Shown here piece by piece: positions 29,273 through 46,987 of a DNA stretch of 64,000 nucleotides. The stretch is from Bugulina stolonifera (taxonomy: Eukaryota > Bryozoa > Gymnolaemata > Cheilostomatida > Bugulidae). The DNA is taken from positions 2,604,001-2,668,000 of the forward strand of contig OW285191.1 of assembly GCA_935421135.1 (NCBI GenBank), given 5' to 3'. Under the pieces are notes generated by a model, which was given only the letters and a program-made list of their open reading frames with translations, had not been told where the DNA came from and did no database searches. The number at the start of each line of letters is the position of its first letter. Position 1 is the first letter of the stretch. The translations under genes and the position numbers were made by a program.

Positions 29273-30832
29273 TCACTTGGTGCATTGTGCGGCTTGTAAG
29301 TGGCAGTCTCTTTCGGCCCGGAGGCGTTTGGTCTCCTGTCTTAGGTTGCGTCTCAACTTTCTGGGAATACGTTTCTTTTGTCCCTTGAAGTGGGTCAACT
29401 GCTCATCTATCTTCCGGACATAGCGTAAGTGCAACTTCCGGGTCTTCCGCTCTCTAGATCCTCGACTGCGACTCATAAACTTGACTTGTAGGAAATCCTC
29501 TAGAGGGTCCCTACCATGAACCTCCTGCACCTTCAGTGCGGACTGTGTCAAGGTTGTCCACTGGCGTAGGGGTGTAATGGATCTGTTGTGAGCGTCTGGT
29601 AGAAGAGGGCTAGAATCCATCTCCTCTTCTGGTACATGAGGGGGAGTACTGACACTCCGTACTGTCTGTGGGCTTGGAGCAACTAGCAGTCCAGGCTCAT
29701 CATCCACAGGGGAAGCTGGAACGGTGTTTACTGAGGGACTGGATGCGTCAGGTGAGTTAAGTTCAACGGCAGGGTTCCTTAATGAGTTCTCAGTAGAGTC
29801 CTCGGAAGGGGGCACCTGGGCTGGTGTGATCACCTTCCTCTTTCGGCCGGTTTTAGTAATTGTCAGAGTAGGCAGTTCCTCTAGATCCTGTCCTCGCCGC
29901 TTCCTCAACTCAGCCATAGAGGGAATAGATGGTGCTACTGTGTCTACTTGGGAATAAACTTTGCTGGGTCCCATCATGCAGGGAATGGTCCATCGGCCAG
30001 CTGGCCACTTTAGTACCTTCCTGAAACCAGCAAAGTGGGTAGCGTCTACCTCATAGATTAGAGTGTTTCCGCAGTTTTGTTTGCTAGGTGGATATGGTTG
30101 TACACTAGCGTATCCACAGCGGCAGTAGCACATAACAAAGTGCTGCCCTACATGCACTTTTACCCGTCTCTCGGTGCCGGGAAACTGGCAGATAGCGCAA
30201 ACACTGTCCTGCCGGGTACCGAGAATGCTGGCGGTGATGTAAGTTAGCGTCTCCTGGCTCACCCACTGGGTTCTCTCGTCTCCCGACGACTGCAGGTCCA
30301 GCCTCTCCAGGTTGACCCTTACATGTCTGGTGTTGTCAGCCTGACTCCCTACAACAGTGCAAGCCCTTGAAGAGAGGCAGTACGAGTCGAAGTCTTCTGC
30401 ACTCCCCAATGCAGACGACACCAGATCCTGGCCGACTGTGCCCCCCAACACAGCCGACATTGAACTGGTGCCGATGTCAGACTCGACCGGTACGACCTTC
30501 GCCTTCGTAGGAGTCTCGAGACCCGTGTGTAAATCATCAGTGTCTAGCAGCAGTAGTGCAGCTTCCAAGTCGAATTCCTCACCTGAAGTGTCTATTGGAT
30601 GCCCGATCGGCTGACTCGGGATACGAGAAGGAGACGACGGCGAGTAGTAGAACTGCTTGTCACTTGGCTGTAGTTGCTGGCTGCGTGTTGCTTGGCTGCT
30701 GGCTGACTGATTACTGATGATTCTGTGAAGATTTGGTGCCCTTATATATGGTTGAGCTGCCTGGGAACTTGAGTCACCTGGTGTCCTGTTACTAGAAGTG
30801 GACAATGGTTTGTTGGACTGGTGGTTCTGCAT
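29273..30832 (-). CDS. Unrecognised 519-residue single-exon protein with Cys/His cluster and basic tail
   Basis: The first in-frame ATG is at 30832 (MQNHQSNKPL) and the frame runs uninterrupted to 29273. I recognise no family. The N-terminal third is Ser/Gln/Pro-rich, followed by an acidic EEFDLEAALLLLD stretch. The centre has a compact Cys/His cluster (CAICQFPG, HVGQHFVMCYCRCGY, KQNC) that could bind zinc. The C-terminal third is Pro/Ser-rich and ends in a very basic segment (SRGSRERKTRKLHLRYVRK and KKRIPRKLRRNLRQ), suggesting nuclear or nucleic-acid binding. A TATA-like TATATAAGG lies about 105 bp upstream of the ATG in a block repeated at 48.1 kb. A mobile-element protein is a reasonable inference; a host nuclear factor is the alternative. 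Confidence 0.6.
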   Translation of the reverse strand: MQNHQSNKPLSTSSNRTPGDSSSQAAQPYIRAPNLHRIISNQSASSQATRSQQLQPSDKQFYYSPSSPSRIPSQPIGHPIDTSGEEFDLEAALLLLDTDDLHTGLETPTKAKVVPVESDIGTSSMSAVLGGTVGQDLVSSALGSAEDFDSYCLSSRACTVVGSQADNTRHVRVNLERLDLQSSGDERTQWVSQETLTYITASILGTRQDSVCAICQFPGTERRVKVHVGQHFVMCYCRCGYASVQPYPPSKQNCGNTLIYEVDATHFAGFRKVLKWPAGRWTIPCMMGPSKVYSQVDTVAPSIPSMAELRKRRGQDLEELPTLTITKTGRKRKVITPAQVPPSEDSTENSLRNPAVELNSPDASSPSVNTVPASPVDDEPGLLVAPSPQTVRSVSTPPHVPEEEMDSSPLLPDAHNRSITPLRQWTTLTQSALKVQEVHGRDPLEDFLQVKFMSRSRGSRERKTRKLHLRYVRKIDEQLTHFKGQKKRIPRKLRRNLRQETKRLRAERDCHLQAAQCTK

Positions 30833-30929
30833 CCCTTTGTGTCTGGCCACCTTATCAACCGTTTTTAATTTAGTGCTGACCACAAGTTTGTCTGGCAAGC
30901 CACTTGATAGGCTTATTTTCGTGGGAATT

Positions 30930-31078
30930 ATGTAACTGCCTTATATACATAACAAACTTCCGGCCAAAAGAGCCCGACATGGTATCGGCTCCGGAACTGA
31001 TGCAACAACATGGAAGGTTCCGCCCGACGTCGGCCATATAAAAGGTCGGCCTTGGCACAAAATGTGCTTACAATAAGG
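30930..31078 (-). promoter_or_regulatory. TATA-containing promoter block, repeated at 48.1 kb
   Basis: On the reverse strand the block reads ATTGTAAGCACATTTTGTGC, then GC-rich GGCCGACC motifs, TTTTGGCCGGAA and TATATAAGG (30938-30947), with the 519-residue frame downstream. The same order of motifs occurs on the + strand at 48104-48262. This could be a promoter or the U3 part of a long terminal repeat. Confidence 0.5.
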
Positions 31079-32218: not shown

Positions 32219-32320
32219 GCACAAATGAACATGCTACCATCCTGTCATACTTGATATGAACATGCTACCATCCTGTCATACTTGATATGAACATGCTACC
32301 ATCCTGTCATACTTGATATA
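32219..32320 (+). repeat. 31-bp triplicate
   Basis: Three copies of a unit starting TGAACATGCTACCATCCTGT. Confidence 0.9.
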
Positions 32321-32427
32321 TCATCTGAATGTTGGATGCTGGAACCACACATGACACTTGAATATGTACGCTGTACATGTGCTACCACTTCGTCATTGTT
32401 ATATAACTCAAACCTCTCTTATTTTAC

Positions 32428-32942
32428 ATGTCTGCTGCCGATGGAACACTTGTCTGCTGCCGATGGAACACTTGTCTGCTGCCGAGGGAACACTTGTCTG
32501 CTGCCGATAGAACACTGTCTGCTGCCGATGGAACGCTTGTCTGCTGCCGATGGAACACTTGTCTGCTGCCGATGGAACACTTGTCTGCTGCCGATGGAAC
32601 ACTTGTCTGCTGCCGATGGAACACTTGTCTGCTGCCGATGGAACACTTGTCTGCTGCCGATGGAACACTTGTCTGCTGCCGATGGAACACTTGTCTGCTG
32701 CCGATAGAACACTTGTCTGCTGCCGATAGAACACTTGTCTGCTGCCGATGGAACACTTGTCTGCTGCCGATGGAACACTTGTCTGCTGCCGATGGAACAC
32801 TTGTCTGCTGCCGATAGAACACTTGTCTGCTGCCGATAGAACACTTGTCTGCTGCCGATGGAACACTTGTCTGCTGCCGATGGAACACTTGTCTGCTGCC
32901 GATAGAACACTTGTCTGCTGCCGATGGAACACTGTCTGCTGC
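32428..32942 (+). repeat. 22-bp minisatellite, about 23 copies
   Basis: The unit TGTCTGCTGCCGATGGAACACT has GATAGAAC and GAGGGAAC variants and two 20-bp units. The overlapping open frames on both strands come only from the repeat. Confidence 0.95.
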
Positions 32943-33613
32943 AGCTTCATATTGACCGCTTCAAATCAGCTCAGCTGTTCTGGATTCTGAAACTTTGTGG
33001 AAACTTTGCTTCTAGATGCAAGTAGTCACAACTCCACTGGATTACATGACATAGACTGTAGCCTTCTTACTATGACTTCACCTTGCTCTTGTACTAGTTT
33101 TTAACTTTTACTTTTCAATTGTTGTACACCTTTGTTTTCTTTTTATTCTTATGTTGTATTTTTACAACAGATTCTTGGTTGGGAGAGAATAGTGATATCT
33201 TACAATATCACGAACGACATTATAATTATGGACATACACTACAAAAACAAAAAAACAGTAAAAGCTAGAAGACAGACTCCATAAATTTAAATACATTTTA
33301 GCATTCAATAAAACATGTCTATAACACTAACTACTATTGTTGTGTTATGTGATGTAATGTATGATGTACATGTAAGTGTAAGGTTAGGCATCCTGTATAT
33401 TATACCTTTAAAAGATATCAATGATTCTACATGTACATACACTGTATAACATTATAGGACAATCATTCACACTATCGTCTAACTTTGAGATGTAATAAAT
33501 GTAGCCTAAAGTACATGATGTGAAATATGCCACATTTGGAGTTGTAGAGTAGTAATATTCCTTTGGGCAACTTGAATCATCATCAAAAATACTTATCTAT
33601 AGTTACATTATAG

Positions 33614-33773: not shown

Positions 33774-36312
33774 ACTCAGAGAGTATCCATAATTAATACT
33801 GAGTCAGTATGGTCATACTGTTCTTGCTCAGTCAGGGGTATGTATCCCTCTGAGTGCAGCTTTGCAATACTGTATAATTACATGTACAGCAAATATCCAT
33901 GTGGGTTTTAGGATTCAACTGTTTGTCCCTAAAAACTTTACCAACTTTTACACATTTGCATGTAATGTTAGAACTCCAACAGTACAGTTGCTACTCAGTA
34001 AATTATTTATAGCTTTGTGTCCTATCATTATAAAGGATGAGCAGAAGACTAATGGTATGGTGTACAGTGTAACCAAGGAGACAAGACAATTACTCCCAAT
34101 TTCAAGAATACTGCTCAATAGCACAGTGTACTATTTCTTGTCACCGACAATTGTACTCCAACACAGGTTTCAGTAAAAACTGATGCGATATATACACTCA
34201 ATTCAGCACTTGTTTGAGGTAGCTTTGTGAATACACGCACGGCACATTATTATTTTAGTCTTGCCAGGAATGTCTTTTAGTAAAAATATGTGTGATAATG
34301 AATAGACTGTATGAACACCAATGTTGTGATTCTCTGGCATGATAATATAAAGCAATATAGCAATCATTTTGGTACATACAATGTGAAATGTTAGTATATG
34401 CATCATTATATTCTTTCTCTTTTAGTAATTTTTCTCATTGTGTTGTATATTTATATCATTTAGAAAGACTTCTATATTTGCAACCTATACATTCTAGCTC
34501 TATCTCAAAACTGAATCTTACATGTAAATAGCTTTCAACAGGTAAGCTTTCTAGCTATACAAGGGAAGACAACTTAATACATTAATAATACAACAATTGT
34601 ACATGTATTTCTCATTCAAGTTCTTGGCTCACATTATTTTGTCTTCCTATGTTGGATCTATAAACAAAGTATGCGTGATGTCGCCACACCAATCAGCTGC
34701 AAACACTCCGCCAGTTTTCTTACACCTACATGACTATTAGGTGCATTTCAAAGATTTCATATGCAACAAGCAAGTGCAGGGGTACTGTGTACCCCTGCAC
34801 TTGCTAAATAAATAATAATAATAATACAACTGCAGAAGGGCACCAGAGGTGTATACTAATTATTTTGGATGTATTGAGTTAAATAGTTGGGTAAATGTAT
34901 CATATTATTTAGTAGTTAAAGTTATCAGATTTGTAGTTCTTCCAGAGGCATGTTCTGCATCAACACTGGCATCCGGAATTATTTACTGGAGTGTAGTAAC
35001 TCCTGCAGGTACCGTGTCTTCCTGTATAATATAGTATTATAGAATATTAGAAAGGAGCCATAGTATGTATACATCATGTAATATAATAATACAACTATAA
35101 TGCTGAAATGTACAATGTAATTTTTATGCAGAGGTTAACTTATGCCAATATTGTGAGCGGATGCAAGGTAGGTAGGTGGGTAGGTAGGTAGGTAGGTAGG
35201 TAGGTAGGTAGGTAGGTAGGTAGGTAGGTAGGTAGGTAGGTAGGTAGGTAGGTAGGTAGGTAGGTAGGTAGGTAGGTAGGTAGGTAGGTAGGTAGGTAGG
35301 TAGGTAGGTAGGTAGGTAGGCAGGCCTACATGTACATGTAAACGTACATAGTGTTCAAAAGTTACATGTACGTTGCTTAGTCTTGAGTACTATCAGCAGT
35401 AATCACCAACCTGACCAGATAGTAGAATGGGAGAGCTGCAGCCAATCTATTGGGTTATACACAGCTAGTTGGTAGTCTGGTACTTTAGCGTTGGATGGGT
35501 AGAGGGCTTGTAGACTGCAAAGTATTGAACAGAATATCGTAATAACAACGAGAGTAACTCAGGGCCAGGATCTTATAAAATGTAGTGAGCTGTAGAATAG
35601 TACGTAGGAACTAAGCTGCATGTAAATGTGCAAGATTAGAATCCAATTGAAGACTCCAAGCTACATAAAAATGGCACTCTCTGCATGTATAATATGGTCC
35701 CACAGATTTCATAAAAATAGCAAACCTAATCTAACAAATGCAACAGATCTTGCTGCCAGTTCAATGGGAATACTCTGCATGAATACAGTTGTATACTGTG
35801 TGACTGTATAAGATACTGCTAATGTGCAATTTTACTATTGTAACGAAGACCGACCAACTAGAAGCAGATTTTGTATATAAGTAGTGATATTTTTATGCTA
35901 CATCAGTTGTTATCTGGAGTTCCATACAGTCACATCTAGATATTTTCTATATATAAGAACCGGAGTTATCTCTTTTAAACTAGTAAACTCCTAGCCTAGG
36001 TCCCTCGGGACCGAAAGCCAGAGCAGCTAGGGTGGCATCGTACATATGGCCACATAAGTAGTAACGAGGAACACTTAGAGCTACGGGTTTCAATTAGCAT
36101 AGAAACTTGGGCTAACTCTTAGTCATTGTTACTCAGTATATGGAACAACTAATGCATGGTAGATAGGCTACTCTCGACCCTTAGTGTAGTGCGTTTATAA
36201 TATCTGACTTATCTGCAGCAATGCTCAATACACTGAACGTCACTAAACGAGCAAAGAATGACGACTCCTAGTTAGCATTGACTCGATGGAAAACCAGGCA
36301 GATAGTTGGTGT
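33774..36312. other. Intergenic left of the Polinton
   Basis: AT-rich sequence with a long GGTA microsatellite. TATA-like and GC-rich segments near 35940-36060 could be part of a decayed retroelement, but no boundaries are clear. Confidence 0.35.
35165..35321 (+). repeat. (GGTA)n microsatellite
   Basis: About 39 uninterrupted GGTA units, with one GGTG near the start. Confidence 0.97.
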
Positions 36313-36318
36313 ATTATA
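36313..36318. repeat. Left 6-bp target site duplication (ATTATA)
   Basis: Identical to 46982-46987 and directly adjacent to the AG end of the element. Confidence 0.9.
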
Positions 36319-36643
36319 AGTAGTATAGTCAGTGCACTTCTAGACAGACACGCACTCATTGACCCCTGTTTTCAACCAATCACAAGCCGGTATTTCCGAT
36401 TTCAACCAATCACAGAAGAGCACAAAAATTTTGCACACGACCTTGCCAAGGTCACCCCAAAATCCCCCCTTCTGATTGGTCGAAAAAACATTTGCACACT
36501 TGACCCCGAACCCGGCCACGACCCCTTCCCTCCCTCCTTCCCGCCCTCCTCCCCCTCCCCCACCTCCCACTCCTCCCCCACTCCCCGCCACCGCCCTCGT
36601 CCCCTCCGCGCCACCGCCGTCGCCGCCGCCACCGCCGCCCTCA

Positions 36644-36681
<38 letters not shown>

Positions 36682-37004
36682 CTCACCACCGCCGCCGCCA
36701 CCGCCGCCACAACCGCCACCACCGCCGCCACCGCCGCCACCACCACCGCCGCCGCCGCCGCCACCGCCGCCGCCGCCATCACCGTCATCACCGCCACCCC
36801 TCCTCCACCGCCGCCCACCCTCCCCCCGCAACCCCCACTCACCCGAACGACCGATCGTTTGAGGCGGTCAAGCCGCGTCCGCCCACGTTGCGTGCGGCGC
36901 CGACCGTACACGTGGAGGCGACGCCGGTGCCCCGTATCCACCGGGCCAAGCGACTAGGCAGCGGCCCGCCGCCCATTCCGAGTTCCACTGGGGTGGGACT
37001 ATAA
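36319..37004 (+). repeat. Polinton left terminal inverted repeat (686 bp)
   Basis: Matches the complement of 46287-46981 almost throughout. The outer part has three CCAAT/ATTGG boxes (CAACCAATCAC twice, CTGATTGG once). The middle is an almost pure CCG/CCA/CCC tract (36520-36840) on this strand. The inner part has a unique GC-rich block and ends at a TATA box. The Pro-rich, Ala-rich and Gly-rich frames here are low-complexity artefacts. Confidence 0.95.
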
Positions 37005-37007
37005 AAG
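37000..37007 (+). promoter_or_regulatory. TATA box at inner edge of left TIR
   Basis: TATAAAAG lies 54 bp upstream of the first gene's ATG. It straddles the point where left and right TIR sequences diverge (TATAAAAG versus TATAATGT). Confidence 0.6.
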
Positions 37008-37060
37008 ATAAGTTTGACTGATGATAGTATTAATACAAAGAAGACTTAGTCATAGCAAAC

Positions 37061-38392
37061 ATGTCTTTTCTCACCAAAGGAGCGGCGGGGAGATATGTAC
37101 TTTTAAAGGAAGTCCTCCCGAAGTCTGTATGGGATTATATGATCAAAAGTAATATCGAAGAAACGAATAGTCCATGGATGTGGTATTGGGTTGACAGACT
37201 CGCTCATAATTCCTTAGTGGTAGAGCTTGCCATCTATTTTAGAACACTTTCACTCTCTATGAATATCCCTTTTAAGATAGGAGAGGAAAAGTTGAGGAAA
37301 ATGGCACTTTGTTATGAAGACTTAACAGGAGCTAGGTCAAGATTTTCATCTATGGTAGAAACAAAAAACGCATCCGTTTCTTCTCCCTTACTCCTTCTTA
37401 GGAATGCGGAGTTGTCAACCTGGTGTAGAGTGGAGGTTGAGAAGATTATTGAAGATAGAAACTGGGATGAAACTGGTGTGGGAGCGGAGGCCACTTTTAA
37501 CACTCACTTCTTACTATATCTGGATAATGAACCTGGTGGGGAAGGTTCAAAGAATGAACTCTATCATAGAGTATTGAACATATTAAAGGATGGGGCAAGA
37601 AGATGTCGTTTTGAGGATGGGAAGGAGAAATCGCGAGCGAAGAGGAGTTACAATGAAGAAAGCATCCCTGGTTTAATTCTTAGTAGAGGTAATACGCTAT
37701 ATGCAGGGCGATTGTTTGGAGAACTAGATCCATCCAAAAATGGGTTAGAGGTGATAAGAAGCCCTTCACCAGGAGATGCTAGATTAGAGGTGAGAGAGAC
37801 TTCTACAGGAGAGACTAACCAGGTTATGATAGAAGAGGTTGAAATGTGTGACATTGGAGAACTAGATTCATCCAAAAACGGGTTAGAGGAGATAAGAAGC
37901 CCTTCACCAGGAGAAGCTAGGGTGGAAGTGAGAGAGACTTCTACAGGAGAGAATAAGCAGATTATGATAGAAGAGCAAACTCATGTAGAAACTAAAGAAG
38001 AGGTTGAAATGTGTGACAAAAGGGAACAAGAGATTAGAAAGATAGAACAAGAATTGGCACTAAAGAAAGTGGAATTGGCAGGAGCACTGGGGTGGAAAGA
38101 AGCACTAGAGATGCAACAGAGAATTGATGCAAGAAAAGAGAGAAGAACAAATCGCATTGCCTTCTTAGAAAAAAAGTTAACAGAGGAAAGAATGGAAAAA
38201 GAGAGGTTAATGATGGAAATCGAGCGTTTGCAAAAAGAAGAAGAAGAAGAAGAAAAAATGGATAGTGTATCAATTATTGATCACATAATTCCCCACCTGG
38301 CTAACAAACTAGATGATAATGATGCAAAAGCAGAAGGGGAAGATAGTAAACTGCCACAGTGGGTTCCAACAGGAGAAAGTAATGATGAATAA
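37061..38392 (+). CDS. Polinton protein of unknown function with internal duplication and coiled coil (443 aa)
   Basis: The first gene of the element, behind a TATA box. I recognise no family. Residues 1-200 look globular (WMWYWVDRL, CYEDLTGARSRF). Residues about 220-300 contain a two-copy duplication of roughly 40 residues (GELDPSKNGLEVIRSPSPG and GELDSSKNGLEEIRSPSPGE, each followed by a REtSTGE..q.MIEE pattern). Residues about 310-405 are charged and predicted coiled coil, rich in Glu/Lys. The acidic tail ends QWVPTGESNDE. It occupies a position where a replication gene might be expected, but no polymerase, helicase or primase motif is visible. Confidence 0.8.
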   Translation: MSFLTKGAAGRYVLLKEVLPKSVWDYMIKSNIEETNSPWMWYWVDRLAHNSLVVELAIYFRTLSLSMNIPFKIGEEKLRKMALCYEDLTGARSRFSSMVETKNASVSSPLLLLRNAELSTWCRVEVEKIIEDRNWDETGVGAEATFNTHFLLYLDNEPGGEGSKNELYHRVLNILKDGARRCRFEDGKEKSRAKRSYNEESIPGLILSRGNTLYAGRLFGELDPSKNGLEVIRSPSPGDARLEVRETSTGETNQVMIEEVEMCDIGELDSSKNGLEEIRSPSPGEARVEVRETSTGENKQIMIEEQTHVETKEEVEMCDKREQEIRKIEQELALKKVELAGALGWKEALEMQQRIDARKERRTNRIAFLEKKLTEERMEKERLMMEIERLQKEEEEEEKMDSVSIIDHIIPHLANKLDDNDAKAEGEDSKLPQWVPTGESNDE

Positions 38393-38432
38393 AAGTGTAT
38401 AGATTCCAATCGTTCTCTCAAACAAGGGCAAG

Positions 38433-38840
38433 ATGTCAAAGCAAGAGGTAGTATGTAGAAATGAGAATTATGAAGATGTGGCTGATGGTCTCTTAGATGA
38501 AGTAGTAGCTATCTCTGCTGAAGAGGGAAGGGAGCAAATAGGAGAGAGAAGCAACAAAAGAAAGAAGTTCACATTCTACATAATCATAATACTATTTATA
38601 CTTTCTTGCTCATCTTTATCACCATCAGTTTACACATATCTAAGTGATAGGGAACCACCCAATGGCAAAGACAAAGGAGTACTTAAGCAAGGACACTTTT
38701 TAAAAACAAACACAACTCTATTAGCTACTCAACTGGATCAGCATGCGTCCACACCAAGAAATCGATCTTCGCTTGCAGAGTCCCTTCACAGCTCTAGTCT
38801 GTGGTCCAACAGGGAGTGGAAAAACGGAACTACTATTTAG
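38433..38840 (+). CDS. Small single-pass membrane protein of the Polinton (135 aa)
   Basis: Starts 41 bases after the previous stop. An acidic N-terminal part is followed by a basic NKRKK and one strong membrane segment (FTFYIIIILFILSC, about residues 48-61), giving a likely N-in topology. The C-terminal part is Ser/Asn-rich with NTT and NRS sequons. Its last 98 bases overlap the ATPase gene in another frame. No family is recognised. A TCTCAAA motif precedes its ATG, as for the minor capsid gene. Confidence 0.6.
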   Translation: MSKQEVVCRNENYEDVADGLLDEVVAISAEEGREQIGERSNKRKKFTFYIIIILFILSCSSLSPSVYTYLSDREPPNGKDKGVLKQGHFLKTNTTLLATQLDQHASTPRNRSSLAESLHSSSLWSNREWKNGTTI

Positions 38841-39402
38841 TCTTATTAGGAGAGTTGATGAAATTGCTTCACCCACTCCTGTTGAAATCATTTACTGCTA
38901 TGGAGTTTGGCAACGCCGCTTTGAGGATTACAAGGATAAAGTAAGGTTTCATTCAGGACTCATTGATGTAGAAATGGATATAGAGCGTGATGGGAAGAAT
39001 CGCTGGCTCATCATTGATGACTTGATGGGTGAAGTCGGGGGGAAAGAGACTACTAATGCAATCTTTACAAAGTTCAGTCACCACCTGAACATAAGCGTCT
39101 TTTTCTTACTACAGAACCTTTTCCCGAAAGATAATAGAACAGTGTCAATAAACTCGCAGTACTTTTTCTTGTTCAAGAACCCCAGAGACGGAATGTCTGT
39201 TACCAATCTTGCAAAGCAGGCTTTTCCTCAGAGTACAAGAGCTGTTCAAGAAGCTTTTAGTGATGCTACACGTAAGCCACACTCTTTTCTATTCTTGAAT
39301 CTTCGCCAGGAAACCCCGGAGTGGGCTAGACTGATCGGTAATTTTGCTTCTGAGCACTCTCCCATGACTGTATATATCCCGAATACCCTGGAATATAAGT
39401 AG
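38743..39402 (+). CDS. FtsK/HerA-type genome-packaging ATPase (219 aa)
   Basis: The A32-like packaging ATPase of Polintons and related viruses, which would pump DNA into the capsid. Walker A is GPTGSGKT at residues 21-28, and a Walker B-like RWLIIDDLM lies near residues 86-94. FFLLQNLF and YFFLFKNPRDG follow, as in the family's sensor region. The length is typical. The start at MRPHQEIDL lies inside the preceding membrane-protein gene, and its product starts just before the P-loop as in relatives. Its stop overlaps a TATA-like sequence for the next gene. Confidence 0.93.
   Translation: MRPHQEIDLRLQSPFTALVCGPTGSGKTELLFSLIRRVDEIASPTPVEIIYCYGVWQRRFEDYKDKVRFHSGLIDVEMDIERDGKNRWLIIDDLMGEVGGKETTNAIFTKFSHHLNISVFFLLQNLFPKDNRTVSINSQYFFLFKNPRDGMSVTNLAKQAFPQSTRAVQEAFSDATRKPHSFLFLNLRQETPEWARLIGNFASEHSPMTVYIPNTLEYK
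39394..39399 (+). promoter_or_regulatory. TATA-like element before the glycine-tail gene
   Basis: TATAAG overlaps the end of the ATPase gene and lies about 70 bp before the next ATG at 39468. A CTCTCTCC stretch lies between. Confidence 0.4.
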
Positions 39403-39467
39403 CATTCACATCTCCACTCTCTCCATAAACTGTCTTGGACTCGAAGAGAGCGCATCCATCATCAAGC

Positions 39468-39833
39468 ATGAGATACATTAATTCACCCGAGTATTCTCCA
39501 AGGTTGAGGAGGAATGCCTTGAGTATATATGCACTGACGAAAGCATCTGCAACCATCAGAGATTCAACCATTGCTGAGGCTAACAAAGACCTTATACTCG
39601 CTCTTGTTGAGTGTGCTAGAAATGTATTATTAGGTAATGTTCATCTAACTACCGCTCAGTTGAACTCTCTACGTCGACATAGAAGGGCCATTGAGGATCT
39701 CACCAACTCTCGTACTAGTGTGAGGCAGAAAAAGTTAATCCTACAACGTGGCGGATTTTTAGGTCTTCTTTTGAAGCCATTGGCAAGTTTACTCGGAGGT
39801 GTGCTTGGCGGATTAGGCGGTGGACGAAGGTGA
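39468..39833 (+). CDS. Conserved small Polinton protein with basic core and Gly-rich hydrophobic tail (121 aa)
   Basis: The first ATG gives MRYINSPEYS. An Arg-rich region (LRRHRRAIEDL, VRQKKLILQ) is followed by RGGFLGLLLKPLASLLGG and a short Gly/Arg end. From memory, proteins with this LRxHRRAL...QRGGFL...G-zipper pattern recur next to capsid genes in animal Polintons. The amphipathic Gly-rich tail suggests membrane interaction or a minor virion component, analogous to small core or membrane-lytic proteins of adenoviruses. That role is inference. Confidence 0.75.
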   Translation: MRYINSPEYSPRLRRNALSIYALTKASATIRDSTIAEANKDLILALVECARNVLLGNVHLTTAQLNSLRRHRRAIEDLTNSRTSVRQKKLILQRGGFLGLLLKPLASLLGGVLGGLGGGRR

Positions 39834-39834
39834 A

Positions 39835-40404
39835 ATGAGTCTCAAGTTTTCTAAAAAGTATCTTCTTATGGATAAACATACATATGAATCAATGAATAGT
39901 AGAAACAACAAAAAAGAAGGAGAGCATCTACCCTCACTCTCTACAAATGGGGATCTACTCCTGGCAGAAAAAAGCAGAAAAGATGTAATATCTAACCTCA
40001 AAAACTCTGATACAGACATCTACTCTCAGCTAGAGCAACATGCTCATAAAATGAATAAGTTCCTAAAAGAGTTGGAGAGATCACGCCATCCGCAGCAAGA
40101 GTTGTATAATACATTAGAGGGAATTAACACTAGGTTTAATGAAATGCATACATGGAGACAAAGAGAAGAAGAAGCACAAGAGCGAGGGCGAGAGAAAAAA
40201 AGAGATGATGAAAAGAGGCGAAGTGGCTCAAGGTCACCACTACCACACCCATATAGGAGAGAAACAAAACCAGAGAGGTCAGAAGCTGGCGCACGTTGGA
40301 GTGGGAAGGGTGAAAATAGAAGTCCTATCAAAACTAGGTCTAGGCGAAAGCTTCCTAAAACCCCTCTTGCAAGCAATAGTAAAACAGAAAGATGGATGAT
40401 ATAG
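39835..40404 (+). CDS. Basic Polinton protein with coiled-coil-like middle (189 aa)
   Basis: The ATG at 39835 follows the previous stop (39831-39833) by one base and gives MSLKFSKKYLLMDKHTYESM. The middle (SQLEQHAHKMNKFLKELE) is probably helical. The last 80 residues are strongly basic with RS/SP motifs (REKKRDDEKRRSGSRSP, RSRRKLPKTP), suggesting nucleic-acid binding. Its end overlaps the integrase start by 13 bases. A similar protein commonly sits at this position in animal Polintons, but its function is not known to me. Confidence 0.75.
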   Translation: MSLKFSKKYLLMDKHTYESMNSRNNKKEGEHLPSLSTNGDLLLAEKSRKDVISNLKNSDTDIYSQLEQHAHKMNKFLKELERSRHPQQELYNTLEGINTRFNEMHTWRQREEEAQERGREKKRDDEKRRSGSRSPLPHPYRRETKPERSEAGARWSGKGENRSPIKTRSRRKLPKTPLASNSKTERWMI

Positions 40405-41462
40405 ATGAAGGTCTACGTGATATTTACTTCTCCCCTCCTCAACCACCATCTTTTGGAGGAAAGAGAAAGTTAGTTTTAGCTTCTCCTCCTGGTATTAATG
40501 AGAATGATGTTGAGAAGTGGTTGAGAAGTCAAGACGCATACACTCTTCATCGCCCGATTAGAATGAAGTTTACAAGGAGAAAAACGTTTGTGAGTGGGAT
40601 TGGTGAACAACTCCAGGCAGATCTCGTGGATGTGCGTGCGCACAAGGACTCAAATGATGGAGTAACATTTTTGCTCACCTGCATAGATGCCTTCTCACGG
40701 AAAGCATGGGTCTTTCCTCTTCATTCCAAGTCTGGTCTGGAAGTGTCCAATGCACTCATCTCTCTATTCGAAAATGAAAGCTTTAGACAAATACAAACTG
40801 ATAAAGGTAAGGAGTTCCTAAACAGAAGGGTGAGTGAAGTGCTAAAGAAGTACGGAGTTAGCCATTTCACCTCTGAGAATGAGATCATCAAGGCTGCTCT
40901 TGTTGAACGCTTTAATAGAACATTGAGAGGGAAAATTCATCGTCTACTCACTTATAGAGGGGATGGACGCTACTTAGAAGATGTAGAAGACCTAGTCCAA
41001 GGATATAACAACAGTTTTAATAGGTCAATTGGAATGAAACCTATTGAGGTTGATTACGATAATCAAGAAGAGGTTTGGGTTCGGTTAAATGAGTTCTCAC
41101 CTAAACGATGGTTAAAGAAAACAAGAGTAAAATACTCACCAGGTGATCATGTTCGGATTTCGATGGCTCGTAGTAGTTTTGAGCGAGGGTTCACACCAAA
41201 CTGGTCAACCGAGATATTCACCATAAAAGCAGTCAAGGCACATACCTCACCTCCTGTCTATACACTGGAAGACCTAAACAAAGAAGGAGTAGATGGAACA
41301 TTCTATGCACAAGAATTGCAACATGTTAACCTACCTGAAATCTTTAGAGTTGAGAAAGTCATACGTAAACGGAGAAGGAGAGGAAAAGAAGAGAGTTTCG
41401 TGAAATGGAGTGGTTATCCCTCTTCATTTAATAGTTGGATAGATTCTAGTCAGTTTGTGTAA
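40392..41462 (+). CDS. Retroviral-type integrase with C-terminal chromodomain (356 aa)
   Basis: An rve-family DDE integrase that would insert the linear element and make the 6-bp duplication. Catalytic residues are D77 (QADLVDV), D137 (QTDKGKEF) and E172 (ALVERFNRTLRG). An SH3-like DNA-binding part follows (YSPGDHVRIS, WSTEIFTIKAV), then a chromodomain at about 317-356 (FRVEKVIRK, VKWSGYPSSFNSWI) that may guide integration to modified chromatin. All catalytic residues are intact. The start overlaps the upstream gene, and the N-terminal zinc-finger region is not obvious. Confidence 0.96.
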   Translation: MDDIDEGLRDIYFSPPQPPSFGGKRKLVLASPPGINENDVEKWLRSQDAYTLHRPIRMKFTRRKTFVSGIGEQLQADLVDVRAHKDSNDGVTFLLTCIDAFSRKAWVFPLHSKSGLEVSNALISLFENESFRQIQTDKGKEFLNRRVSEVLKKYGVSHFTSENEIIKAALVERFNRTLRGKIHRLLTYRGDGRYLEDVEDLVQGYNNSFNRSIGMKPIEVDYDNQEEVWVRLNEFSPKRWLKKTRVKYSPGDHVRISMARSSFERGFTPNWSTEIFTIKAVKAHTSPPVYTLEDLNKEGVDGTFYAQELQHVNLPEIFRVEKVIRKRRRRGKEESFVKWSGYPSSFNSWIDSSQFV

Positions 41463-41474
41463 GATCAAAGGTAG

Positions 41475-41480
41475 TATAAA
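41475..41480 (+). promoter_or_regulatory. TATA box of the minor capsid gene
   Basis: TATAAA lies 42 bp upstream of the ATG at 41517, just after the integrase stop. CTCTCAAAG directly precedes the ATG. Confidence 0.55.
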
Positions 41481-41516
41481 TTCGATATGTAAGTTCAGTT
41501 TTGCTCACTCTCAAAG

Positions 41517-42263
41517 ATGGCCTTCAATGTCACACTTACCTCAAATGTACGCATCGGTGGGAGTGATACAAACACCAATGCTCACTTCATTACGAAGCTA
41601 GCCAAGACATTGAAGCTTCACTCATCACAGTGGGAGGTTGGGTTACTTGACATTCAGTACCCTGCATCCTGGAGAAATGTGGAAGATGGCTATGTAGTGG
41701 TTACGAATACAAAAGATGGAGTCAAACGAAAATGTGAAATCAGGAGTGGAAGGTATGCTTCCATGGGTGAACTTTTGAGTGAGATCAATAGAATACTAAT
41801 AAACTACGACTTAGAAAAAGTAGTGAGCTTTTACTATGATAGTCTACGGAATGAAACCTTCCTCATGTTGAGAGAACAGGAACACTCTGTCATGATGTCA
41901 CGTGATGTTGCGTGGGTGTTGGGATTCGAACCTGATGTAGAATATGCTGCGGAAATCAACAGGAGTCAAAACCCTCCAGACATCAATGCTGGTTTCACAT
42001 CCCTCTATGTCTACTCCTCCGTAGTCTCACCAAGACATGTTGGAGATAGTCTAGTCCCCCTACTTCGCACAGTTCCTATAACAGAGAGTGAAAGAAATAG
42101 CACCGTTTTCTTTGAGTTTTCGAATGTTCAATACTCTCCAGTGTCTAATACAAGCACAGACCTCATCGAGGTAGATATAAGACGTGATGATGGAGAAAGG
42201 GTCTCATTTCGCAGTGGAAAGGTTGTGCTGACGGTTCGTTTCAGACCGCGTGGAGAGAAATAA
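41517..42263 (+). CDS. Penton-like minor capsid protein (248 aa)
   Basis: Matches the Polinton minor capsid (single jelly-roll, penton-like) pattern. It has an N-terminal FNVTLTSN strand, WEVGLLDIQYPASW near residues 39-52, and a central YASMGELLSEIN helix. VAWVLGFEP follows, and the C-terminal half ends in VVLTVRFRPRG. The length of about 250 residues is usual. It would fill the capsid vertices next to the major capsid trimers. The start is chosen for the TATA box and the CTCTCAAAG leader. Confidence 0.9.
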   Translation: MAFNVTLTSNVRIGGSDTNTNAHFITKLAKTLKLHSSQWEVGLLDIQYPASWRNVEDGYVVVTNTKDGVKRKCEIRSGRYASMGELLSEINRILINYDLEKVVSFYYDSLRNETFLMLREQEHSVMMSRDVAWVLGFEPDVEYAAEINRSQNPPDINAGFTSLYVYSSVVSPRHVGDSLVPLLRTVPITESERNSTVFFEFSNVQYSPVSNTSTDLIEVDIRRDDGERVSFRSGKVVLTVRFRPRGEK

Positions 42264-42264
42264 C

Positions 42265-42675
42265 ATGGCCCCTCGCATAGTTCCATATTTTCCTGATGAG
42301 TCAGGTGAGATGTATGAAGACTATTATGCAAACCAGGTGGGAGAGGGAATGAGTGTGTACAGGGGAAAACCTATTATGACGGGTAATGGGATCGGCTCAC
42401 TCTTTTCTGGACTGGCCCGAGGGGTCCTTCCCATGCTAAAGAATGGTGCCAAAACTATTGGGAAAAAGCTATTGACTACTGGAGCTTCGGTTCTGGGAGA
42501 TGTAATCAAGGGAGAGAACTTCAAATCCTCTGCAGCAAAACGTTTTCGTGAAGCTGGTGGGGATCTTCTAGGTGATGTAGAAGATGAATTACGTGAACCA
42601 CCTGCCAAACGTGCACGAGTTAGTCAAAAGTCTACAAAGAAAAAGCGTAAAGGAAGAAAAACAGTTTTTGACTAA
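42265..42675 (+). CDS. Conserved Polinton virion-type protein with basic tail (136 aa)
   Basis: The ATG (MAPRIVPYFPD) is one base after the penton stop, so the two genes are tightly coupled. The core GNGIGSLFSGLARGVLPMLK, followed by KTIGKKLLTTGASVLGDVI, is a Gly-rich amphipathic helical pattern that recurs in proteins encoded beside Polinton capsid genes. The tail KKKRKGRKTVFD is strongly basic. A minor core or membrane-active capsid component is likely but is inference from context. Confidence 0.8.
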   Translation: MAPRIVPYFPDESGEMYEDYYANQVGEGMSVYRGKPIMTGNGIGSLFSGLARGVLPMLKNGAKTIGKKLLTTGASVLGDVIKGENFKSSAAKRFREAGGDLLGDVEDELREPPAKRARVSQKSTKKKRKGRKTVFD

Positions 42676-42687
42676 ATGAAAGATAAA

Positions 42688-42695
42688 TATATAAT
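42688..42695 (+). promoter_or_regulatory. TATA-like element of the major capsid gene
   Basis: TATATAAT lies 86 bp before the MCP ATG, in a ~105-bp gap. CTCTCACA lies near the ATG. Confidence 0.5.
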
Positions 42696-42780
42696 CCACA
42701 CCTAGACTCACCACTCCCCACTCTTAGACAAGCGACTGTAGGAGCAAGTACTAGATGGAACAACTCTCACACTATCGAAC

Positions 42781-44127
42781 ATGTCCGTCACACATCGAGC
42801 CATCTCTCTCTCCAAGGTTTCTGAAGACTCTCCAGACACGGTTGACTCCAGTTTTGACTTATTTGCCACTCCGCCAACTCATACTAGCGTGCTCAGAGGT
42901 GAGTGGGTACCTTTGGCTCCTGTTACGGACTCCCCTGATGGCACTATTGAATTTAACATCCCGCCCGCAGACGAACTCTACACAGATCTATCAAGGTCTT
43001 ACTTACACACCACAGTAAAGGTGAGCAAGGCTGATGGAAGCGTACTACCTGCGGAAGAACAACTAAAGGTTGTTCCAGGGGACAATTTTATGCACAGTCT
43101 CTTTTCTTCTGCCACTGTTCAACTGGCTGGGCAAGATGTTGAGTATGAACCAAACTATGGACATAGAGCTTATGTCGAGAATCTCCTAAACTATGGTAAA
43201 GATGCTAAGAGCACATATATGAAAGTTGGGAGTGGGTGGATGGAGGATGAAGGAACTGGAGAAGACTATGATGGTATACCCCCCGAAGTGGTTGAAAAAA
43301 GAAAGAAACTTATAGCCACAAGTAAAGAGATGAGCTTCTATGGGAGACCTAGGTTGAGTATGTTTTCTCAAGGAAGACTTATTCCACCAGGAGTTCGCTC
43401 TCGCCTCACTCTACAACGTGCTATTCCACAAATGGCCCTCTTAGCAGAAACAGACAACCCTGCAGGAGGGGCGAAGATTTCTATAACTAAGACAGAATTG
43501 TGGATTCGACGTGTACAAGCCAATCCGGCCTTACAAAAAGCACAAATGGATGTTTGGGTTGTGCAACAAGAGTCTATAAAACTACCAATTGACCGAATAA
43601 AAACTCATTTCCATGTCATCCCTGCTGGACACCAGTCAGTGAGAGTAAACTTTGATCAAGCGGGACAGAAGCCAAACAGAGTCTTTGTCGGACTAGTCAA
43701 CCATACTGCAAAGAGTGGAACGTATAAGCAAAATCCCTTCAAATTTGGACATAACAATCTAAGTTCATTAGAACTACTAATTGATGGAACACCGGTGACC
43801 CGAAGATATGAACCAAACTTTGCAAGTGGAAAGTTTGCTCGTGAATTCATGAATTTGTTCACTGTCACAAATACATCCGATGCTGACACAGGGAATGAGA
43901 TCTCCCCTAGCAAATACAAGTCCTGCGCTGCTCTCTACGCCTTTGACATTTCAGGAGATTTGTGTGATGACAACTTTCACTTGTTATCAAATGGGAGTCT
44001 ATCTATTAATCTAGCATTTGCTAATCAAACTCAAAATACACTTGGACTGTTTGTATACGAAGAAAAAGATGACATTATCTACTTGAATGCAAATCACGAA
44101 GTATCTATGGTAGCCGGGATGATGTAA
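42781..44127 (+). CDS. Major capsid protein, double jelly-roll (448 aa)
   Basis: The pattern fits Polinton/adintovirus-type double jelly-roll capsid proteins. An N-terminal FDLFATPPTHTSV segment precedes FNIPPADELYTDLSRSYL. VVPGDNFMHSLFSSATVQL and YVENLLNYGKDAK follow. The second half has PIDRIKTHFHVIPAGHQS and the C-terminal NLAFANQTQNTLGLFVY strand before NHEVSM. The length is in the family range and the frame is intact. Trimers of this protein would form the icosahedral shell. Position downstream of the penton gene and upstream of the protease is the usual arrangement. Confidence 0.94.
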   Translation: MSVTHRAISLSKVSEDSPDTVDSSFDLFATPPTHTSVLRGEWVPLAPVTDSPDGTIEFNIPPADELYTDLSRSYLHTTVKVSKADGSVLPAEEQLKVVPGDNFMHSLFSSATVQLAGQDVEYEPNYGHRAYVENLLNYGKDAKSTYMKVGSGWMEDEGTGEDYDGIPPEVVEKRKKLIATSKEMSFYGRPRLSMFSQGRLIPPGVRSRLTLQRAIPQMALLAETDNPAGGAKISITKTELWIRRVQANPALQKAQMDVWVVQQESIKLPIDRIKTHFHVIPAGHQSVRVNFDQAGQKPNRVFVGLVNHTAKSGTYKQNPFKFGHNNLSSLELLIDGTPVTRRYEPNFASGKFAREFMNLFTVTNTSDADTGNEISPSKYKSCAALYAFDISGDLCDDNFHLLSNGSLSINLAFANQTQNTLGLFVYEEKDDIIYLNANHEVSMVAGMM

Positions 44128-44132
44128 AAAGA

Positions 44133-44660
44133 ATGGATACATTCTCAATCTCGAATATTCTATCTGATGATAAACTCTCATCAACCTCCTTTAGAGGGGT
44201 TATGCCAAGGGATCACTTCTTAGACTCCTTCTCCCCATCTGGATCTTTTGTTTTCAACACTCAAACAAGTGAGAAAAGTGGCGAGCATTGGATCTCTGTT
44301 TTTTCGAATGGAAAAGAAATAGAGTATTTCGACTCCTATGGTCTCCCCCCTTCTATTTATCCTGATGTGGGTAAGATGTTACAACAATGGGGAATACCAA
44401 TAGTATGGAATGGAGAGTGTCTACAAGAAGAGAGTACTAACGTGTGTGGAGACTACTGCATCTTGTTCTGTCTCCTTCGAGCTCGAGGGTGGAGTATGGA
44501 GGGAATAATTACACGGCTAAGCAGAGTAGAAGGAAGAGTTCGAGATCATTCTATAAGAGCTCTATTACAACGTTTATACTATAATAAAAGAAATAATACT
44601 TTCCCACTCACAACGCATGTAAACAATATTATGCTTTTTTCACCTTTTCACTTTGACTAG
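44133..44660 (+). CDS. Adenain-like maturation cysteine protease (175 aa)
   Basis: Ulp1/adenain-fold protease that would cleave virion precursors. The triad is visible: H52 (GEHWISV), D67 (EYFDSYG) and C105 (CGDYC), with the oxyanion Gln at Q98. The start is five bases after the MCP stop. The length is slightly short for the family, with the last 15-20 residues low in complexity. A 61-codon hydrophobic T-rich frame overlaps the end (44653-44838); I do not call it. AATAAA at 44821 could be a polyadenylation signal for this gene block. Confidence 0.93.
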   Translation: MDTFSISNILSDDKLSSTSFRGVMPRDHFLDSFSPSGSFVFNTQTSEKSGEHWISVFSNGKEIEYFDSYGLPPSIYPDVGKMLQQWGIPIVWNGECLQEESTNVCGDYCILFCLLRARGWSMEGIITRLSRVEGRVRDHSIRALLQRLYYNKRNNTFPLTTHVNNIMLFSPFHFD

Positions 44661-44872
44661 AGAGAAATACTTCACCTTACTTATAATTCGTTTTTATACT
44701 ACTATAACTAAAAAAAAGAGACCAATAGTTTTTATCTTACCTGCATTCTTTTTTTTTCTTTGCTTTTTAGATTTCTGCTTGATTCTTGATTCTTTTATTT
44801 TTTCTCTATTTATCTTCGTAATAAAACAATACTACTGAAGAAAGCTGCATCTTTTCTATCTTGGAATAATAC

Positions 44873-45133
44873 TCATCCATGGGTTGTTGTGGTCTCGCCC
44901 CTATCCGAGGCCCGCTCCGGGGAGGACGGAGAGTCCACCATGTTAGAAAGATCCTTTCGGGCAGGACTCCCCACTCCTATTATTTTCCCCTTCTTCCGTG
45001 CCTCTTTTAACGCATCCACCTCTTCTTTCCTCTTCTGACTGCACTCTTCTTCCTCAATAATTCCATCCATTTGTGAGTCCGTTAAGCCCGCAAAACACTC
45101 TTCTTGGTTTTGTACTATGTTGTCAGTATCCAT
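44873..45133 (-). CDS. Small acidic Polinton protein on the opposite strand (86 aa)
   Basis: The only substantial - strand frame. It starts at ATG 45133 (MDTDNIVQNQEECF) and has a TATA box at 45215-45222. It is rich in Glu/Lys (IIEEEECSQKRKEEVDALKE), then KKGKIIGVG and SPSSPERASDRG. It is convergent with the capsid/protease block. No family is recognised; a regulatory protein would be a guess. The promoter position supports expression. Confidence 0.55.
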   Translation of the reverse strand: MDTDNIVQNQEECFAGLTDSQMDGIIEEEECSQKRKEEVDALKEARKKGKIIGVGSPARKDLSNMVDSPSSPERASDRGETTTTHG

Positions 45134-45214
45134 CGATAATGTACTATTGTAGTAGTGTAGCTGTACAGTAGTGATGTGGTGAACTTTGAATGCTGAGACT
45201 GTGATCCCACTCTC

Positions 45215-45222
45215 CCTTTATA
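45215..45222 (-). promoter_or_regulatory. TATA box for the - strand small protein
   Basis: The complement reads TATAAAGG, about 82 bp upstream of the ATG at 45133 and between it and the palindromic array. Confidence 0.55.
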
Positions 45223-45273
45223 CAACTGCTCATTTCTTGACTCCTCCCTTTTTTTATCCAATCCCAATGTGAC

Positions 45274-45990
45274 CCGATGTGAATCCGAAGCCTTCCGATG
45301 CATCCCGATGTGATTCCGAAGCTTCCCGATGCATCCCGATGTGAAACCGAAGCTTCCCGATGCATCCCGATGTGATTCCGAAGCTTCCCGATGCATCCCG
45401 ATGTGATTCCGAAGCTTCCCGATGCATCCCGATGTGATTCCGAAGCTTCCCGATGCATCCCGATGTGAATCCGAAGCTTCCCGATGCATCCCGATGTGAT
45501 TCCGAAGCTTCCCGATGCATCCCGATGTGATTCCGAAGCTTCCCGATGCATCCCGATGTGATTCCGAAGCTTCCCGATGCATCCCGATGTGATTCCGAAG
45601 CTTCCCGATGCATCCCGATGCATCCCGATGTGAATTGACACATCGGGATGCATCGGGAAGCTTCGGAATCACATCGGGATGCATCGGGATGCATCGGGAA
45701 GCTTCGGAATCACATCGGGATGCATCGGGAAGCTTCGGATTCACATCGGGATGCATCGGGAAGCTTCGGAATCACATCGGGATGCATCGGCAAGCTTCGG
45801 ATTCACATCGGGATGCATCGGGAGGCTTCGGATTCACATCGGGGTGCATCGGGAGGCTTCGGATTCACATCGGGGTGCATCGGGAGGCTTCGGATTCACA
45901 TCGGGGTGCATCGGGAGGCTTCGGATTCACATCGGGGTGCATCGGGAGGCTTCGGATTCACATCGGGAGGCTTCGGATTCACATCGGGGT
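45274..45990. repeat. Head-to-head 31-bp minisatellite palindrome
   Basis: About 11-12 units containing GATGTGATTCCGAAGCTTCC run in one orientation (45274-45632). At 45633-45638 (AATTGA) the array flips, and about 11-12 units run as the reverse complement (to 45990). The inner arm units are nearly identical, and the right arm drifts (GGGGTGCAT, GGAGGC) toward its outer end. The result is an inverted repeat of about 350 bp per arm. Open frames here are repeat artefacts. Confidence 0.95.
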
Positions 45991-46019
45991 GGGGAAATGG
46001 TTAGACTCCGCCCACTGAA

Positions 46020-46130
46020 TACTACTATTTAAGGTATAAGTTTCTCACTCTAGCAGTATGAACAATCAGCCTCTAGTCAACAGAGTGAGAGTAAACAGAG
46101 ACAGCTACCTACTAGTCAGTGCCTGATCAG
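46020..46130 (+). promoter_or_regulatory. Possible + strand promoter and short leader before right TIR
   Basis: TATTTAAGGTATAAG near 46026 is followed by CTCACTCT and a 22-codon frame at 46058-46126 (MNNQPLVNRVRV...). No larger frame follows before the TIR, so a non-coding or spliced transcript is conceivable. Confidence 0.25.
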
Positions 46131-46286
46131 AGATGTCAACAAGTAGAACATAAGGTTAGTGTTAAATGGAGTAATTGGCAGCAATTGTGAAGTGTTTATT
46201 GTATAAAATGCTATCAAGCTAAAAAATAACTCACACCCTACTACTATATATTTTTATAGGGAGGCTAAACAATTTAATATATTACA

Positions 46287-46981
46287 TTATAGTCCCACCC
46301 CAGTGGAACTCGGAATGGGCGGCGGGCCGCTGCCTAGTCGCTTGGCCCGGTGGATACGGGGCACCGGCGTCGCCTCCACGTGTACGGTCGGCGCCGCACG
46401 CAACGTGGGCGGACGCGGCTTGACCGCCTCAAACGATCGGTCGTTCGGGTGAGTGGGGGTTGCGGGGGGAGGGTGGGCGGCGGTGGAGGAGGGGTGGCGG
46501 TGATGACGGTGATGGCGGCGGCGGCGGTGGCGGCGGCGGCGGCGGCGGCGGCGGTGGTGGTGGCGGCGGTGGCGGCGGTGGTGGCGGTGGCGGTTGTGGC
46601 GGCGGTGGCGGCGGCGGCGGTGAGGGCGGTGGTGGCGGCGGCGACGGCGGCGGTGAGGGCGGCGGTGGCGGCGGCGGCGACGGCGGTGGCGCGGAGGGGA
46701 CGAGGGCGGTGGCGGGGAGTGGGGGAGGAGTGGGAGGTGGGGGAGGGGGAGGAGGGCGGGAAGGAGGGAGGGAAGGGGTCGTGGCCGGGTTCGGGGTCAA
46801 GTGTGCAAATGTTTTTTCGACCAATCAGAAGGGGGGATTTTGGGGTGACCTTGGCAAGGTCGTGTGCAAAATTTTTGTGCTCTTCTGTGATTGGTTGAAA
46901 TCGGAAATACCGGCTTGTGATTGGTTGAAAACAGGGGTCAATGAGTGCGTGTCTGTCTAGAAGTGCACTGACTATACTACT
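46287..46981 (-). repeat. Polinton right terminal inverted repeat (695 bp)
   Basis: The inverse of 36319-37004. It is 9 bp longer, apparently from triplet gains in the GGC/GGT tract. The G-rich tract is on the + strand here. Confidence 0.95.
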
Positions 46982-46987
46982 ATTATA
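46982..46987. repeat. Right 6-bp target site duplication (ATTATA)
   Basis: Matches the left copy exactly. Confidence 0.9.

Follow-up and report, generated by a model that had tools for sequence, protein, structure and literature searches.

Element A of the bryozoan Bugulina stolonifera is an integrated Polinton of 10,663 bp (positions 36319-46981 of the window) that encodes an integrase, a packaging ATPase and a set of candidate virion proteins, and in which no DNA polymerase B (PolB) was detected. The window is the whole 64,000-nucleotide stretch analysed here, C5:2604001-2668000 of an assembly of 234,951,659 bases in 27 contigs. Element A is inserted with 6-bp target-site duplications (TSDs), has amplified recently to about 200 places in the genome, carries coding frames that are under purifying selection as a pooled set, and shares its ends with a second element, B. 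We read A as a Polinton lineage in which PolB may have been lost or replaced, and which would borrow PolB in trans with B as its passenger. We give this reading as a whole an even chance of being right; on the sequence, the borrowing of replication in trans is plausible.

The ends of A are those of a Polinton. Both flanks of the window copy carry ATTATA, a perfect TSD, and the terminal inverted repeats (TIRs) of ~690 bp show 0 mismatches outside a CCN-triplet block (Table 1). The nine terminal bases are AGTAGTATA, and the TIRs begin AGTAGTATAGTC. Of the features by which a Polinton or Maverick is recognised, the long TIRs, 6-bp TSD, rve integrase and FtsK/A32 ATPase are present. Ten + strand frames, adjacent or slightly overlapping, fill 37061-44660 in Maverick order. 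The longest open run in 300 mononucleotide shuffles of this interval had a mean of 100 codons and a maximum of 187, which is exceeded by six of the ten frames (443, 219, 194, 356, 248 and 448 aa), with the remaining four (135, 132, 141 and 175 aa) below it.

The integrase and packaging ATPase are firm Pfam matches, and the adenain-type protease shows weak matches only. For the major capsid and penton candidates, which in a Polinton would be double and single jelly-roll proteins, no usable match was found in Pfam or the Protein Data Bank (PDB), nor for the PW and PZ candidates in Pfam, and the names capsid, penton, PW and PZ are therefore drawn from gene order and general resemblance. A profile of the capsid gave a single, chance-level match in the PDB (E 0.095). 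The capsid candidate, which we take to be adintovirus-like, has seven relatives besides itself, at 24-49% identity. No relative was confirmed among viral contigs searched with the capsid protein, its alignments A1 and A2, the integrase, or the relatives P0007 and P0008, or among bacterial and archaeal contigs searched with capsid alignment A1, and a search of phage records gave no match.

Polintons are termed self-synthesizing because they bring their own PolB, and the protein-primed PolB (pPolB) expected of a Polinton or Maverick was not found in A by a six-frame Pfam search with stops read as X. As a control, the same Pfam library detected DNA_pol_B_2 in a different Polinton of the genome at 1.2e-27. 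For a second PolB type, that of the family-P group described below, profile PF03175 scores only marginally (28-29 bits), and so the size argument matters too: the longest unassigned frame of A, ORF1 (open reading frame 1), is 443 aa. The six-frame search also found no S1H, S3H, PolA or AEP, a very divergent form of which is conceivable in ORF1. The original prediction of a 10.66-kb element with a perfect 6-bp duplication, near-identical TIRs and no PolB between 36319 and 46981 therefore holds. Its claim of a full capsid set with integrase stands for the integrase and the ATPase, is weak for the protease, and for capsid and penton depends on order and resemblance, while the right-hand gap that it put at ~1.1 kb is actually ~1.6 kb, from the last gene to the TIR (44661-46286).

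A occurs in many copies. A 43-nt TIR end is found exactly at 268 + 275 = 543 places genome-wide (reversed control pattern, 0), and a 40-nt probe from the A protease, allowing at most 2 mismatches, at 117 + 84 = 201. TIR pairs were sorted on contigs C1 and C2, for which the place lists are complete, and the 46 pairs comprise 23 A, 22 B and one unassigned; the A probe also has four places on C1 and two on C2 that belong to no exact TIR pair. Fifteen of the 23 A elements measure 10.55-10.89 kb, the rest ranging from 8.8 to 17.2 kb. PF03175 gave 0 matches inside the 46 pairs, including two A copies whose left arms are longer, by hand sums, by ~3.7 kb (C1:33834401-33848125) and ~6.1 kb (C1:26262243-26279407). 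Because so many A copies are without detected PolB, A is a lineage and not a one-off deletion. A perfect 6-bp TSD was present in all 14 elements compared (five A including the window copy, and nine B), out of 16 with both ends, which makes an assembly artefact unlikely.

Size classes at first suggested several segment types, which the probes reduced to A, B and the one unassigned pair, C1:17537468-17546033, the sole pair on C1 and C2 matched by neither probe. Compared in reverse with the right array region of A, 300 bases of this pair align at 80% over 333 columns and 97% over 96; it is probably a derived A, or alternatively a third kind of element.

The window copy differs from four other A copies by ~0.1-0.3% substitutions in coding sequence (hand sums), and the coding regions are near-identical. 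Across these five copies, chosen for perfect TIR ends and with ten frames pooled and short overlaps double-counted, 20 synonymous and 20 nonsynonymous changes were counted against a neutral expectation of 78% nonsynonymous (p 9e-5, dN/dS ~0.28), and single genes hold too few changes for a separate test. The coding frames of A, taken together, are under purifying selection.

Element B (eleven loci, L039-L047, L056 and L057) combines the TIRs of A with a different interior and carries an array whose 9-bp core is that of A. The outer 242 bp of the TIR are 100% identical in the 40 best-scored of 800 candidates, with A and B ends included. Two probes place B at 149 or 140 places genome-wide, their counts disagreeing; of these places, two on C1 and one or two on C2 are not part of an exact TIR pair. 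Pfam searches showed no capsid, integrase or polymerase in B (six frames of L044 outside the array, three frames of L056, and one frame per strand of L039), and tblastn of the A proteins against L044, L046 and L056 gave 0 matches. B has an ankyrin-like frame, which matches PF00023 (7.4e-6) as well as PDB chains of ankyrins, and two frames with no PDB match, one of 93 aa and one, repetitive, of ~467 aa.

Candidate polymerase donors are present in the same genome. PF03175 matches it 11 times; six of these matches fall on C1 and C2, at five loci, none of them inside a TIR pair. A ~15-kb Polinton found at six places, with TIRs of ~817 bp, carries a 1,380-aa PolB, an ATPase, an integrase and a capsid candidate of its own. 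Its end, placed where the alignments stop, is AGTAGTATA, nine bases as in A, after which the sequences diverge. Relatives of the A capsid (family P) occupy seven places. At two of these, a PolB match lies upstream of the capsid gene and in the same orientation, at distances of 5.5 and 9.6 kb, and the PolB group of this family comprises 1,415-aa frames that score 28-29 bits with PF03175. With this marginal profile, no match was seen near the other five family-P places or any of the seven places of a further capsid family, Q. Both families were placed from 95 of 268 candidates scored. The genome thus holds PolB near relatives of the A capsid, at few places. The family-Q capsids, on C2, C3 and C9 and at 45-46% to P0007, may also belong to PolB-less elements. 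PF00136-type PolB gave 13 matches in three clusters (C1 ~24.1 Mb, C6 ~12.3 Mb and C7 ~6.25 Mb), which were read as host polymerase exons and set aside.

Several expectations of the original prediction can be judged from these surveys. The lineage that it favoured is supported by the 201 probe places, by 23 A elements without PF03175 and by four other copies that are near-identical, and the PF03175 scan of the 46 pairs on C1 and C2 revealed no sibling that has PolB between these TIRs. The PolB-bearing Polintons with matching ends that it looked for exist in part: the nine terminal bases of the ~15-kb family agree with A, and the similarity goes no further. Element B and the PolB-bearing Polintons lie beyond the single window on which that prediction was based.

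In the preferred reading, the A integrase would insert linear DNA ending in AGTAGTATA, and a protein-primed PolB, provided in trans by PolB-bearing Polintons of low copy number, would copy this linear form from its AGTAGT ends; one candidate donor family starts with A's nine terminal bases. A would be packaged by its own capsid and ATPase, and B would be a passenger moved by A proteins. We hold only tentatively a wider picture in which A, autonomous for capsid and integration and polymerase-less, may be copied either by a pPolB shared via the AGTAGTATA termini or by ORF1 acting on the array as iterons, and would spread with B as a two-component system.

A number of observations weigh against PolB borrowing and the passenger role of B. 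The (AGT)2 motif makes up six of the nine terminal bases that A has in common with the ~15-kb Polinton, and excerpts of one survey describe (AGT)2 as the most frequent end of vertebrate Mavericks (PMC8097293). No similarity between the two elements beyond the terminal bases was seen by blastn, and a profile of the A capsid did not match the capsid candidate of that Polinton. With no similarity detected between the capsids, and integrases and ATPases only 27% and 29% identical, cross-use between the two is not obvious. The remaining five PF03175 matches, on C4, C7 and C10, fall outside the TIR-pair comparison, and the silence of PF03175 near the family-P and family-Q places proves nothing because the profile is marginal for family-P PolB. 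Within-element TIR pairs differ at a median of 17.5 columns versus 27.5 for TIRs of different elements, and the own partner is the closest TIR in 3 of 16 elements; because partner TIRs are barely more alike than TIRs across elements, panhandle-type homogenisation within elements is unsupported. ORF1 is interrupted by a stop in one of the five A copies, and the capsid gene in another. The capsid proteins are identical in all 94 of the best-scored among 269 candidates, a biased sample, and the selection test itself pools a small set of copies selected by their ends. The contrast in polymorphism between A and B (p 0.026) includes three of eleven B loci whose alignment covers just half of the 467-aa frame, and the frames of B may not be real genes. 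A and B are known here from DNA sequence alone, and ORF1, an orphan protein of 443 aa, could have a role in replication.

This last point leads to the main rival, in which PolB would have been replaced by a novel replication protein, ORF1 or another orphan ORF, which may act as an initiator by binding the CACATCGGG array and recruiting host polymerases. ORF1 is the gene next to the TIR, whose edge carries a TATA box, and it lies on the side of the capsid where the two family-P places have their PolB match. The array core is common to A (12 + 12 copies) and to the six B loci tested (28-63 each, in one orientation), and is absent both from the rest of the window (~53 kb) and from 18 kb of sequence at one of the ~15-kb Polintons. 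The inverted arrays of A also fold far better than 20 shuffles, as any inverted arrays must. Against this, ORF1 has no sequence similarity to anything searched, with no homolog at E<=10 (one search scored 8000 candidates sharing most words) and 0 Pfam matches over the cut-off, and the stop in one of five A copies falls in this frame. In the comparisons made, the ORF1 part of A has no aligning counterpart in any of the eleven B loci, so that B would need ORF1 in trans, and the position of the array between divergent promoter-like sites would suit an enhancer equally well. We regard a replicative ORF1 as unlikely, although it is the strongest competitor to PolB borrowing.

The likeness of A and B at their ends would also fit a different arrangement, in which the two would be segments of one bipartite virus, with A providing capsid and integrase and B something that both need. 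B is indeed a second segment with shared ends: the outer TIR and array core are the same, TSDs are perfect in both, and the numbers are similar, genome-wide (201 versus 149 or 140) and on C1 and C2 (23 versus 22 pairs). What B should then contain is a needed, conserved product, yet no constraint is seen in three frames across eleven loci (56 nonsynonymous and 22 synonymous changes, p 0.21), and the frames scanned show only the ankyrin-like fragment, the ~467-aa repetitive frame and the 93-aa frame, with no replicase domain, so that we find a bipartite virus distinctly improbable. We think it slightly less credible still that A arose by internal deletion from a longer Polinton that had PolB and the same ends, and then spread passively in the manner of a non-autonomous transposon. 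The promoter-like stretch and ATG at the right end, without a gene behind them, are a possible scar, and the two A copies with longer left arms fit such an origin, but PF03175 is empty in all 46 TIR pairs (bearing in mind its marginal score for one PolB type), and purifying selection on A frames during the spread is unexpected for a passive derivative. Finally, linear replication may not be involved at all, if the integrase excises and reinserts A and B, while host replication and repair raise their numbers. In principle an integrase and shared ends could be enough for mobilisation, but the pooled A frames, mostly morphogenesis genes, look constrained during the spread to ~200 places, and this points to a virion step; of the four alternatives, this is the one that we consider least probable.

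Non-autonomous DNA transposons with captured sequence have mobile-element ends around unrelated sequence, as does B. B differs from this class in that its presumed mobilising partner, A, is itself without a polymerase. The closest known systems to A, as described in the excerpts of the cited papers on which the following comparisons draw, are the animal Mavericks. The gene orders ATP-(PM)-PZ and INT-minor capsid-PW-major capsid-PRO are shared with vertebrate and animal Mavericks, as are the rve integrase, (AGT)2 ends, TIRs of hundreds of bp and 6-bp TSD (PMC8097293, PMC4028283), and coding on one strand is also seen in Mavericks of Xenopus tropicalis (PMC8097293). Unlike Mavericks, A is without pPolB and measures 10.66 kb, as compared to 12.7-24.6 kb for intact vertebrate elements (PMC8097293). 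The C-terminal chromodomain of the A integrase is an adintovirus trait, whereas the adintovirus definition requires a PolB with an N-terminal OTU-like domain (PMC11071296), and the six-frame Pfam search of A found none. The same paper mentions genomes with adenovirus-class virion proteins and no recognizable PolB or integrase, from which A differs by having an integrase (PMC11071296). Polinton-like viruses (PLVs) and Tlr elements resemble A in having a capsid without a canonical pPolB, and Tlr keeps an rve integrase, but they encode other replication proteins, namely S1H, S3H, PolA or AEP fusions, or helicases (PMC11071308, PMC4028283, PMC12747079), none of which was detected in A. Virophages likewise combine their own capsid with dependence on another element and, unlike A, encode replication proteins, either pPolB or PolA-S3H (PMC11071308).

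High copy number as such is already known, with up to 287 degraded Mavericks in a single genome, 38 intact copies in a different one (PMC8097293), and hundreds of copies of cryptophyte PLVs (PMC12220804, PMC12747079). A search of the open-access literature, in which few subscription journals are covered and which is therefore weak evidence, did not find an animal Polinton family that has capsid and integrase, is replicase-free and reaches high copy number. A, which is PolB-less, is by far the most abundant of the Polinton families counted here, and PolB-bearing places are few in the genome. A is therefore a directly testable case in which the replicase, not the capsid, may be the shared good, and A and B, with the same ends, are a concrete pair for studying passenger gain or genome splitting in virus-like elements.

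Table 1. Features of element A and its flanks (positions in the window).
Feature	Position	Strand	Remarks
Left TSD	36313-36318		ATTATA
Left TIR	36319-37004	+	First bases AGTAGTATAGTC; CCN-triplet block at ~36560-36830; TATAAAAG at inner edge (37000)
ORF1, 443 aa, orphan	37061-38392	+	~46-aa tandem duplication; charged C-terminal part
135-aa ORF, putative membrane protein	38433-38840	+	One hydrophobic stretch, as read from the sequence
Packaging ATPase (FtsK/A32 type)	38743-39402	+	Pox_A32 1.3e-6
132-aa ORF, Maverick PZ position	39435-39833	+	Start TTG, first ATG ~39468; order as in excerpts of PMC8097293
194-aa orphan ORF	39820-40404	+	Start GTG; first ATG ~39835
rve integrase with C-terminal chromodomain	40392-41462	+	rve 2e-11, Chromo 1.2e-6
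Penton (minor capsid) candidate	41517-42263	+	Position only; no usable profile or PDB match
PW-like minor virion protein candidate	42250-42675	+	Position only; start GTG, first ATG ~42265
Major capsid protein candidate, 448 aa	42781-44127	+	7 relatives besides itself
Adenain/Ulp1-type maturation protease	44133-44660	+	Weak: Peptidase_C5 E 0.097; African swine fever virus (ASFV) S273R E 0.047
86-aa ORF	44873-45133	-	TATAAAGG upstream (45222)
Two inverted 31-bp repeat arrays	45262-45990		Core CACATCGGG 12x per orientation
Putative TATTTAAGG-type rightward promoter-like stretch	46022-46126	+	22-aa ORF (46058-46126), then no gene
Right TIR	46287-46981	-	From the TIR alignment
Right TSD	46982-46987		ATTATA

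At the right end of A, the promoter-like stretch with its short ATG frame (46022-46126) could be a deletion scar or a non-coding transcript. The host DNA flanking A is rich in tandem repeats, with minisatellite-like arrays that appear as repetitive frames at 8473-9436, 10534-11646, 32291-32965 and 35166-35324, and an AGGT array. A 555-aa open frame on the - strand at 29273-30940 has no Pfam match at E<=0.01. At 12419-12982 (+ strand), a weak match to glycosyl hydrolase 65 (5.6e-5, under the curated cut-off) is a probable host exon, presumably of an animal collagen-glucosidase gene. A 571-aa frame at 24670-26385 (- strand) matches DUF7869 (7.9e-7), and we take it to resemble transposon-derived genes.

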